This document shows positions 13,293 to 45,092 of a stretch of 55,352 nucleotides of DNA, piece after piece. Source of the stretch: Ignavibacteria bacterium (GTDB lineage: Bacteria; Bacteroidota; Ignavibacteria; Tepidaquicellales; Tepidaquicellaceae); the NCBI GenBank assembly GCA_019187405.1, contig JABAQZ010000028.1:1-55352 (forward strand), in the 5' to 3' direction. The notes beneath the pieces are model-generated. The model ran no database searches, was not told the DNA's origin, and saw only the letters and a list, made by a program, of their open reading frames with translations. The position numbers and the translations under genes were made by a program. Numbering within the stretch: position 1 is the stretch's first letter; the number at the start of each line of letters is the position of its first letter.

Positions 13293-14579
<1,287 letters not shown>

Positions 14580-14580
14580 G

Positions 14581-14785
14581 TGAGACAACATTTATGTTGT
14601 GAGAGTGAGACAACATTTATGTTGTGAGAGTGAAACAACATTTATGTTGTGAGAGTGAAACAACATTTATGTTGTGAGAGTGAAACAACATTTATGTTGT
14701 GAGAGTGAAACAACATTTATGTTGTGAGAGTGAAACAACATTTATGTTGTGTGAGTGAAACAACATTTATGTTGTGTGAGTGAAA
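14581..14785. repeat. Eight tandem copies of a 25-bp palindrome-bearing repeat
   Basis: Eight uninterrupted 25-bp units (14581-14780) plus 5 bases of a ninth. Each unit carries the perfect dyad ACAACAT-TT-ATGTTGT, so the RNA could form eight identical small hairpins. Copies 1-2 begin TGAGAC and copies 3-8 TGAAAC; copies 7-8 end GTGTGAG instead of GTGAGAG. The array fills nearly the whole gap between eno and queA. It has no spacers of CRISPR type. Confidence 0.95.
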
Positions 14786-14815
14786 AAATTTTTTTTTGTA
14801 AAAATATTTTATTAA

Positions 14816-15850
14816 ATGAAACTATCACAATTTAAGTACCCGATACCTAAAAATTTAATAGCTAAGGTTCCCAAAAACCCAAGAGATATGTGTAAACTTA
14901 TGGTTGTAAATAAGGAAACGGGTGAACTGGAAACAAATAAATTCAAGGATGTCATTAACTACATGAATGCAGGTGACGTTTTAGTCCTAAACGATTCAAA
15001 AGTTTTTAATGCAAGGTTGTACGGAACTAAGGAAAAAACTAAAGCTAAGATCGAAGTTTTCTTGTTAAGACAGTTATCCTCCGAAGAAAATATTTGGGAT
15101 GTTGTGGTGGATCCGGCAAGAAAAGTCAGAATCGGAAACAGAATTTTCTTTACTAAAAATCTTTTCTGTGAAGTTATTGATAATACCACTTCACGTGGCA
15201 GAATAGTCAGATTTAATTATTCCGGTGATTTTTCAAAGTATATTGAGAAACTCGGAAAAACTCCTTTGCCACCTTACATTAAAAGAGATTCTACCGAAAA
15301 AGATAAGGAAGATTATCAAACAGTCTATGCCAAAAGTGTCGGCTCGGTTGCAGCGCCTACCGCCGGACTTCATTTTACAAAAGACCTATTGAAAAAAATT
15401 GAAAACAAAGGAGTCAAAATAGTTTATATTACTCTCCATATCGGCCTTGGCACTTTCAGACTTGTTGAAGTTGAAGATTTATCAAAACACAGGATGGATT
15501 CAGAATATTATGAAATGACTCAGGAAACAGCAGATATTATTAACAATTCAATTTCTAAGAAAAAGAAAGTTATTGCTGTCGGAACTTCGGTTGCAAGGGT
15601 CCTGGAAACAAATGTTATCACAAGCCGACATGTAAGATGGGGTAAAGGCTGGACTGACAGATTCATTCATCCGCCTCAGACTTTAAGGATTGTGGATAAA
15701 CTTATTACAAACTTCCACCTCCCTCAAAGCACTCTGCTTATGCTTGCTTGCGCTCTTGCCGACCGTGATGTAATTATGAAGGCATATAAAAAAGCTGTAA
15801 AAGAAAAATACAGATTCTACAGCTATGGAGATGCCATGATGATTGTGTAA
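14816..15850 (+). CDS. queA: tRNA queuosine synthesis: SAM:tRNA ribosyltransferase-isomerase
   Basis: QueA moves the ribosyl part of S-adenosylmethionine to preQ1 at tRNA position 34, giving epoxyqueuosine. The 344 residues match the family length. Conserved segments include the start YPIPKNLIAKVP with R.KL/CKLMV, VLNDSKVFNARLYG, GKTPLPPYI near the middle, VAAPTAGLHFT, ITLHIGLGTFR and the C-terminal TNFHLPQSTLLML. The ATG start lies 30 bp after the 25-bp palindrome array and is preceded by an A/T-rich stretch with no clear Shine-Dalgarno site. A terminator follows the gene. The call is secure. Confidence 0.96.
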   Translation: MKLSQFKYPIPKNLIAKVPKNPRDMCKLMVVNKETGELETNKFKDVINYMNAGDVLVLNDSKVFNARLYGTKEKTKAKIEVFLLRQLSSEENIWDVVVDPARKVRIGNRIFFTKNLFCEVIDNTTSRGRIVRFNYSGDFSKYIEKLGKTPLPPYIKRDSTEKDKEDYQTVYAKSVGSVAAPTAGLHFTKDLLKKIENKGVKIVYITLHIGLGTFRLVEVEDLSKHRMDSEYYEMTQETADIINNSISKKKKVIAVGTSVARVLETNVITSRHVRWGKGWTDRFIHPPQTLRIVDKLITNFHLPQSTLLMLACALADRDVIMKAYKKAVKEKYRFYSYGDAMMIV

Positions 15851-39251: not shown

Positions 39252-39914
39252 TTGTCAAAGAACACATTCATTTCACACTGGAAAAAATTTTTCAGTGATC
39301 GCACGTCAAGAATAGAATTTGTTATTACAATAATTTTACTTGTAATAACAGTTTATTCATTCAGTCGGTATCTTTTATTTAATGAGGCAAGACAGGGTGT
39401 ATTACTTGATGATCCGTTATTAAGACATTTTAGTGCAATTGACCTGAATGCACTCATATTTTTTGCAATTTATTCTTCGCTTTTGATTGGATTAATTGCT
39501 TTCAGCTTATATCCTGAGCAGCTAATGACAGCATTTCAGACTTACACATTGCTTGTGATTTTCAGGATGAGCGCGATGTATCTTGTTCCGCTTGAACCAC
39601 CGGCGGGGTGCATAGATCTTCAGGATCCGGTAGTATTCATACTTGGAACGGGGCAGAAAATAATAAAGGATTTATTTTATTCCGGACATACATCGACAGC
39701 GTTTATGTTGTTTCAGGTTGCACGAAGCAGAATTCTGAAATCATATTTTCTTGCAGCGACAGTGACGGTTGGAATATGCGTAGTACTTCAGAAGGCACAT
39801 TACACGATAGATGTATATGCAGGGTTGATATATTCGTTTGCATCATATCAGATAATTAAAATGATAAGAAGAAAATTCAGTAAATATTTCAAACATCATG
39901 AGCAAAAGGCGTAA
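39252..39914 (+). CDS. PAP2-like membrane phosphatase (sphingomyelin synthase-like)
   Basis: A 220-residue integral membrane protein with about five or six hydrophobic segments. The active-site motifs are LFYSGHTSTAF (H146) and KAHYTIDVYAG (H183, D187), matching the C2 and C3 motifs of the PAP2_C/sphingomyelin synthase-like family. Members transfer or remove phosphate groups on lipids such as phosphatidic acid, undecaprenyl pyrophosphate or ceramide derivatives; the substrate here is unknown. TTG start at 39252 without a Shine-Dalgarno site. The ridA gene overlaps its end by 17 bp. Confidence 0.83.
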   Translation: MSKNTFISHWKKFFSDRTSRIEFVITIILLVITVYSFSRYLLFNEARQGVLLDDPLLRHFSAIDLNALIFFAIYSSLLIGLIAFSLYPEQLMTAFQTYTLLVIFRMSAMYLVPLEPPAGCIDLQDPVVFILGTGQKIIKDLFYSGHTSTAFMLFQVARSRILKSYFLAATVTVGICVVLQKAHYTIDVYAGLIYSFASYQIIKMIRRKFSKYFKHHEQKA

Positions 39915-43950: not shown

Positions 43951-45092
43951 GCTCTCACGCAGATTCCGCAGAAGCTTTCACGCAGATTTCGCAGATGTTC
44001 TCGCAGATTCCGCAGACGCTTTCACGCAGATTCTGCAGACGCTCTCACGCAGATTTCGCAGACACTCACGCAGATTTCGCAGAAGCTTTCACGCGGATAT
44101 CGCAGACACTTTCACGCAGATTCCGCAGAAGCTTTCACGCGGATATCGCAGACACTTTCACGCAGATTTCGCAGACACTCACGCAGATTTCGCAGAAGCT
44201 TTCACGCAGATTCCGCAGAAGCTTTCAGGCAGATTTCGCAGACACTCACGCAGATTTCGCAGAAGCTTTCACGCAGATTTCGCAGACACTCACGCAGATT
44301 TCGCTGACACTCACGCAGATTCCGCAGACGCTCTCACGCAGATTTCGCAGACACTCACGCAGATTCCGCAGACGCTCTCACGCAGATTCCGCAGACGCTC
44401 ACTCAGATTCCGCAGACACTCTCACGCAGATTCCGCAGACGCTCACTCAGATTCCGCAGAAGCTTTCACGCAGATTTCGCAGACACTCACGCAGATTTCG
44501 CAGACACTTTCACGCGGATATCGCTGACACTCACGCAGATTCCGCAGACGCTCTCACGCAGATTTCGCAGATGTTCTATCGTGGATATCGCACGCTCTCA
44601 CGCAGATTCCGCAGACGCTCACGCAGATTCCGCAGACACTCACGCAGATTCCGCAGACGCTCACGCAGATTCCGCAGACACTCACGCAGATTCCGCAGAC
44701 ACTCTCACGCAGATTCCGCAGATGCTCACGCGGATTCCGCAGAAGCTTTCACGCGGATTCCGCAGACGCTCACGCGGATATCGCAGACACTCACGCAGAT
44801 TTCGCAGACACTTTCACGCAGATTTCGCAGACACTCACGCAGATTCCGCAGACGCTCACTCAGATTCCGCAGACGCTCACTCAGATTCCGCAGATGCTCA
44901 CGCGGATTCCGCAGAAGCTTTCACGCGGATTCCGCAGACGCTCACGCGGATATCGCAGACACTCACGCGGATTTCGCAGACGCTCACGCAGATTCCGCAG
45001 ACGCTCACGCAGATTCCGCAGACACTCACGCAGATTCCGCAGACACTCACGCAGATTTCGCAGACACTCTCACGCAGATTCCGCAGACGCTT
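43951..45092. repeat. 1.14-kb tandem array of about 52 units (21 or 23 bp)
   Basis: Consensus unit ACGCTCACGCAGATTYCGCAG, 21 bp; about 40% of units carry two extra bases (TT or TC) after ACGCT, making 23 bp. By hand I count about 52 units with point variation, including CACGCGGATATCGCAG and CACTCAGATTCCGCAG types. Each unit holds two CGCAGA words 9 bp apart. The array is clearly richer in G+C than its flanks. An 87-bp block at 44710-44796 recurs exactly at 44882-44968, showing block duplication. It is not a CRISPR, as no unique spacers exist. It lies upstream of the GxxExxY gene and downstream of DUF971. Confidence 0.97.

Follow-up and report, generated by a model that had tools for sequence, protein, structure and literature searches.

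What is the tandem repeat that fills the gap between the enolase gene (eno) and the queuosine biosynthesis gene queA in this Ignavibacteria bacterium, and does it belong to either gene? The window analyzed here is a stretch of 55,352 nucleotides, contig C24 of a 3.78-Mb genome in 38 contigs (G000). The gap contains eight 25-bp units arranged head-to-tail (14580–14785), with 25-bp spacing in seven of seven intervals. Each unit is composed of a GTGA tag, one base, the palindrome ACAACAT-TT-ATGTTGT and a short spacer. The enolase stop codon is at 14577–14579 and queA begins at 14816. The 16-mer ACAACATTTATGTTGT has exactly 8 occurrences in the window. When up to two mismatches were tolerated and both strands read, it gave 17 matches (shuffle mean 0.13), made up of the eight sites, their counterparts on the opposite strand and one at 39696. 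Coordinates are collected in Table 1.

Table 1. Position of the repeat units and of the neighboring genes, in window coordinates.
Feature	Position	Strand	Detail
eno, enolase, upstream neighbor	13296–14579	+	Pfam Enolase_N and Enolase_C
Degenerate half unit over last enolase codons and stop	14566–14583	+	Tandem Repeats Finder array start; local alignment score 24
REP unit 1	14580–14604	+	tag GTGA 14580–14583, palindrome 14585–14600
REP unit 2	14605–14629	+	tag 14605–14608, palindrome 14610–14625
REP unit 3	14630–14654	+	tag 14630–14633, palindrome 14635–14650
REP unit 4	14655–14679	+	palindrome 14660–14675
REP unit 5	14680–14704	+	palindrome 14685–14700
REP unit 6	14705–14729	+	palindrome 14710–14725
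REP unit 7	14730–14754	+	palindrome 14735–14750
REP unit 8 and trailing partial spacer	14755–14785	+	palindrome 14760–14775
queA, queuosine biosynthesis, downstream neighbor	14816–15850	+	Pfam Queuosine_synth

A first-pass annotation had described eight tandem perfect palindromes that start at the enolase stop. The number, the 25-bp spacing and the perfect arms stand, but the central TT is not self-complementary. Each unit is therefore directional, and the orientation of all eight is the same, namely that of transcription. The start has to be moved upstream, as Tandem Repeats Finder reports 8.8 copies from 14566, within eno. The annotation had also seen that the first two and last two units differ from the middle, and this holds. 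Units 1–2 begin with GTGAGA and units 3–8 with GTGAAA, while the spacer is TGAGAG after units 1–6 and TGTGAG after units 7–8, giving the variant blocks 1–2, 3–6 and 7–8, with units 3–6 alike. A CRISPR array was rejected, since the spacers are near identical. The eight units, all in one direction, likewise do not form a REPIN or BIME, in which two REPs have opposite orientation. Elsewhere in the window (43954–45091), a 369-codon open reading frame is filled by a 21-bp unit, CTCACGCAGATTCCGCAGACG, in ~52 copies and with a double unit of 44 bp; neither inverted repeats nor a Pfam match above the cut-off were found in it.

The annotation had suggested a genome search for other copies. The array as query gave 27 matches, namely itself and 26 at four other places. 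Its core, CAACATTTATGTTG, occurs exactly 139 times in the genome, and the reversed control 0 times. These cores lie in five tandem arrays: 8 at eno, 41 at C1:284–286k, 49 in two arrays on C6 (85–87k and 99k) and 41 at C15:38–41k. As these numbers add up to 139, no exact core lies outside the five arrays, of which the eno array is the smallest. A 12-base core with one mismatch allowed gave 260 matches compared to 171 for the control, so degenerate solitary copies may exist. When cores with up to two mismatches are counted, spacing is 28 bp in 40 of 44 intervals at C1 and 29 bp at the remaining three arrays (18 of 20 at C6:99k, 42 of 46 at C6:85k and 44 of 52 at C15).

The sister units share the tag and the stem with the eno units, each with its own variation. 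A GTRR tag, a feature characteristic of REPs (repetitive extragenic palindromes), is positioned two bases upstream of the core in 130 of the 139 exact copies. At eno the tag is GTGA in 8 of 8 units and never GTAG, which counts against assignment to the GTAG-type REPs. With up to two core mismatches, the tags are GTGA 22, GTAA 18 and ATAA 5 of 45 at C1; GTGA 13, GTAG 4, GTAA 3 and GTGG 1 of 21 at C6:99k; GTGA 28, GTAA 12 and other 7 of 47 at C6:85k; and GTAG 27, GTAA 25 and GTTG 1 of 53 at C15. An isolated unit is predicted to fold, as DNA and as RNA, into a 6-bp stem (ACAACA/TGTTGT) with the loop TTTA. The outermost stem pair is A–T in 8 of 8 eno units and G–C in 152 of 166 sister units. The second pair outward is complementary in 0 of 8 and 53 of 166, respectively. 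The stem is therefore one pair shorter in most units of this genome, and this too counts against the REP assignment.

Judged from open reading frames, three arrays (eno, C6:99k and C15) have co-directional neighbors and two (C1 and C6:85k) convergent ones; divergent neighbors occur at none of the five, a small number. In the three co-directional arrays the tag strand is the coding strand. This placement by gene orientation is the one described for REPs, within a sample of five arrays. The large sister arrays also contain higher-order repeats; the periods reported include 328 bp at C1, 353 bp at C6:85k and 327 bp at C15. Here (L039:2445–4226, L040:2068–3700 and L041:2980–6162) blocks of REP units alternate with other repeated segments, like eukaryotic satellite DNA.

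Taken together, these data indicate that the eno–queA repeat is very probably an orphan tandem array of GTAG-type REPs, seeded in the gap and expanded in place.

The palindrome has a narrow distribution in related genomes. The bare core was present in 5 of 59 genomes (this one and 58 relatives), with 139 copies in G000, 60 in G004, 3 in G020 and 1 each in G016 and G029; single matches to the reversed control occurred in G004, G019, G037 and G057. The tagged core was found in 3 of 391 genomes of the class, an even draw from a larger group: G000, G004 (40) and G020 (3). One exact match to the tagged core among viral contigs may be chance. In G004, which represents a related genus, the 60 cores are spread over 38 contigs, some as single copies and others as opposed pairs or small groups. 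The opposed pairs (for example L060:1500–1665) resemble REPINs, and no relative of the C6 transposase discussed below was detected in this genome. Fourteen distinct G004 sites with fetched loci, out of the 60 cores, were used to compare stems. Their outermost pair is A–T in 5, G–C in 5 and T–A in 4, and so complementary in 14 of 14. The search core leaves those positions free, and these compensatory pairs are therefore fair evidence for the stem. The next pair is complementary in 11 of 14, and the tag is GTAA in 9 of 14.

Comparison of eno 3′ regions in relatives had also been proposed, and it returned the array in none of the loci that could be read. An enolase match was present in 56 of the 58 other genomes, and loci were made for 29. 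In the 23 relatives analyzed by script the eno–queA gap measures 4–101 bp, and in the 19 gaps long enough for the core nothing came closer than five mismatches. Four more loci, read by eye (L012, L014, L020 and L036), lack the array. It is thus absent from 27 of 27 readable loci among the 29 fetched (L013 and L018 unread), and the relatives searched include no other genome of the window's genus. A contig search with enolase, which covered named relatives, placed the closest of these by enolase in Ignavibacteria assemblies, at 82–83 percent identity. Among the first 20 of its 80 loci (L110–L129), examined at the eno end, L110 and L111 have the same eno–queA gaps as L010 and L016; no credible queA start was found in the others, and the best likeness to the core after eno is at three mismatches (L117 and L123).

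The first-pass annotation had suggested that the hairpins could stabilize the eno mRNA, bind a protein cooperatively or separate the expression of the two genes. Could the array be a host RNA element that, through its hairpins or rod, shields the eno message against decay from the 3′ end or makes queA independent of eno, with the copy number under selection? It is positioned on the coding strand between co-directional genes, and the available text of one paper (PMC3733652) describes REPs elsewhere as transcribed and at gene 3′ ends. The predicted RNA fold of the whole array is strong (−78.2 kcal/mol, z −6.25 relative to shuffles). However, it takes the form of one long rod, built by pairing between arms that belong to separate units, rather than the eight identical hairpins of the first-pass annotation, and single units fold weakly (−4.6 kcal/mol as RNA and −4.0 as single-stranded DNA). 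This kind of fold is expected of any array whose units are self-complementary, and the rod is therefore not evidence of function. Moreover, the 27 readable relatives lack the array at this locus, the sister arrays have unrelated genes as neighbors, and a search of 14400–15000 gave nothing that resembled a terminator or a promoter. Searches for an intrinsic terminator, a G+C-rich stem followed by a T run, in the same interval and for known structured RNAs in the window (Rfam, gathering threshold) gave 0 matches. We consider a selected RNA element unlikely. The array probably has no dedicated function for eno or queA, and any effect on their RNA would be lineage-specific.

A cooperative site for a DNA-binding protein, nucleoid or regulatory, with a dimer on each palindrome, is very improbable. 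Near-symmetric sites at a regular 25 bp and the same core in five arrays would suit such a protein. Spacing, however, varies among the arrays (25, 28 and 29 bp), so the sites keep no single helical phase, and the asymmetric center with its one-sided tag suits a hairpin in a single strand more than a duplex site with symmetry. This explanation is also without a candidate protein.

The end of the enolase gene bears on where the first unit came from. Enolase terminates in FYCL-stop here and mostly in FYNIK-stop or similar in family-level relatives. The stretch at 14566–14583 aligns to the REP unit with a score of 24, which 9 of 5000 mononucleotide shuffles reached, while the eno ends of four hand-picked relatives score 10–14. 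The earlier impression that the enolase end resembles a degraded unit is therefore supported, in the form of a half unit. On the simplest reading of the sequence, a partial REP unit would account for the final two codons of enolase and for its stop; the available text of PMC3733652 describes REPs whose ends provide stop codons. That the array instead grew from the end of the enolase gene itself, as had been proposed, with slippage as the mechanism and its likeness to other repeats secondary, is hardly credible. The half unit lies within eno, and native relatives have GCATTTTA-like letters at this position, but the four relatives tested reach scores of only 10–14 and the tagged palindrome recurs in four other arrays and two other genera. 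This recurrence implies that the unit more likely arrived as a REP, replacing the last enolase codons. An assembly artefact in the copy number is just as improbable, for although short tandem units can be collapsed or expanded, the unit variants are ordered, the array is internal to its contig and the genome has four more arrays of this sort; even a wrong count would leave the identity of the unit unaffected.

A putative transposase adjoins one of the five arrays. At C6:99k, ~50 bp separate the last exact core from the start of a RAYT gene (G000:C6:98295–98957, 221 codons), and this interval contains a degenerate unit. The gene product matches the NCBIfam model for REP-associated tyrosine transposase with E = 7.9e-15, at 55 bits relative to a cut-off of 80. 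For Pfam Y1_Tnp it scores 22.9 against a cut-off of 23 as a single protein, and it was counted above the cut-off with its neighbors in the genome-wide Y1_Tnp search. In an alignment of eight sequences, the C6 protein and seven homologues, His118, His120, Trp171 and Tyr192 are invariant; the two histidines and the tyrosine provide the predicted HUH motif and catalytic tyrosine of a RAYT, or TnpA-REP. A search of solved structures gave a marginal match to TnpA-REP 4er8 (E 0.092), to which we gave no weight as lyases score alike. TnpA-REP proteins are described, in the available part of PMC8266576, as cutting and rejoining single-stranded DNA near a tagged hairpin, with REPs as substrates.

The association of this RAYT with the eno-array REPs is limited in several ways. 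REPs of the family are found on its 5′ side only, with none within ~1.5 kb on the 3′ side, whereas classical RAYTs sit between inverted REPs; this counts against the REP reading. The window's contig has no Y1 match. The REP is present in G004 and G020, but these genomes gave no match to the C6 RAYT at E ≤ 0.001, and none of their seven Y1 loci has an exact core next to it. The link between REP and RAYT therefore comes down to one adjacency. On contig C41 of G004, a Y1 gene and a REP lie ~4.5 kb apart. In favor of the REP reading, among 13 RAYT loci of relatives (L081–L093), GTAG or GTAA is at, or within a few bases of, a palindrome foot in 10, a count without a chance control; L086, L088 and L089 lack a palindrome with either tag.

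The same genome contains a second RAYT (C7:151056–151607), 45 percent identical to the first over the match. It is flanked on both sides by 44-bp tandem arrays of a second REP family, CACAGACTATnAGTCTGTG (G000:C7:150474–152184, L077). These hold 24 exact copies, 23 of them with the tag GTAA, and both arrays have the same direction. With the tag GTAG, the family forms a 40-bp array of 13 exact copies at C11:144314–144892 (L215), and two further exact copies, inverted, lie within ~1 kb of it. Also on C11, ~1.4 kb from this array, a Y1-like gene interrupted by a stop lies beside a third array (L215:12–253; G000:C11:142011–142252), in which a 50-bp unit that contains GTAG and the palindrome GGGCAACC...GGTTGCCC is repeated 4.9 times. 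Tandem palindrome arrays of different sequence also border the Y1 loci L073 (G000:C1:70036) and L076 (G000:C22:6667), the latter with its Y1 match within a very long open frame of 1552 amino acids.

These observations can be assembled into a model for the seeded and expanded REP array. A tagged hairpin (GTGA, one base, 6-bp stem, TTTA loop) would have entered the short eno–queA gap, perhaps as single-stranded DNA moved by a RAYT such as the one on C6, whose kind we infer to have been involved in seeding the eno copy. It would have overwritten the last enolase codons, giving a new stop. The unit may then have multiplied in place, head-to-tail and with a constant period of 25 bp; replication slippage at the hairpin or unequal recombination would be the simplest route. 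Array-specific periods and identical central units point to local growth rather than repeated insertion. The periods are 25, 28 and 29 bp in the eno-array family and 40 and 44 bp in the CACAGACTATnAGTCTGTG family. More speculatively, the REPs of this genome could be regarded as a bacterial satellite DNA, in which a seeded REP grows into an array with its own period and, in the large arrays, with higher-order repeats of ~330–350 bp, driven by a RAYT or by the hairpin; we offer this as a tentative idea that is more likely wrong than right. If true, such growth in two REP families of unlike sequence would suggest that both are amplified by a common route, one that differs from the usual scattering of REPs and REPINs.

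A family of mobile repeats, present at other places in the genome, explains this odd repeat between two housekeeping genes, and such arrays should not be read as gene-specific regulators. The family also offers a contrast for how REPs multiply, as the same palindrome is scattered in the G004 genus and confined to tandem arrays in G000.

How closely do the units resemble known REPs? They have the short palindromic hairpin of GTAG-type REPs (stem ~6–9 bp, short loop) and a near variant of the tag, which at eno is GTGA only. Copy number is high and placement mainly intergenic, with the 139 exact cores in five arrays between genes. A spread as singles or pairs is not seen among the exact cores of this genome, which counts against the REP reading; most REP families have solitary copies, whereas 0 exact copies are solitary here. 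Searches of an open-licence library gave no description of this family, and no paper there combined Ignavibacteria with palindromes and tandem repeats. The available text of PMC5317091 reports an 18-nt REP-like motif in Caldithrix abyssi, of a different phylum.

The following comparisons draw on the available parts of the papers cited. The GTAG-tagged REP families of Di Nocera et al. (2013, PMC3733652) share with the present units a tag beside a hairpin, a 6–9-bp stem with a short loop, compensatory stem variants, a position at gene 3′ ends and, for some, RAYT genes nearby. The GTAG-23 elements of T. roseum are also clustered in blocks at few loci. The eno family differs in its GTGA tag at eno and in having no exact copies outside arrays in its own genome. 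Pseudomonas fluorescens SBW25 (Bertels and Rainey 2011, PMC3116915) likewise has directional, evenly spaced REP arrays and clusters beside RAYT genes. There, however, REPs are mostly inverted doublets (REPINs), and mixed GI–GIII spacings are 72 and 112 bp rather than 25–29 bp. The REPtron Mb of Marinomonas sp. MWYL1 (PMC8266576) has the same small perfect stem, TTTA loop and short gap between tag and stem, and its REPs are also concentrated near the transposase gene. Three of the four bases of its TTTA loop matter for cleavage. Its stem is 5 bp and its tag GTAG, compared to a stem of at least 6 bp and GTGA, GTAA or GTAG here, where the elements are known from sequence alone. In its motifs the C6 protein resembles RAYT subclass 2.4 (group 4) of a 2018 phylogenomic survey (PMC6006769), a subclass that includes Bacteroidetes. 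Its NHVH and YIMNNP agree with the subclass motifs NH[IFV]H and YIxNNP, although it has W then H, not Q. Published precedents (PMC3733652, PMC3116915) exist for REPs in tandem, for blocks of REPs at few loci, for REPs next to RAYTs and for stop codons supplied by REPs. What is less usual here is that all exact copies of two REP families lie in, or within ~1 kb of, head-to-tail arrays.
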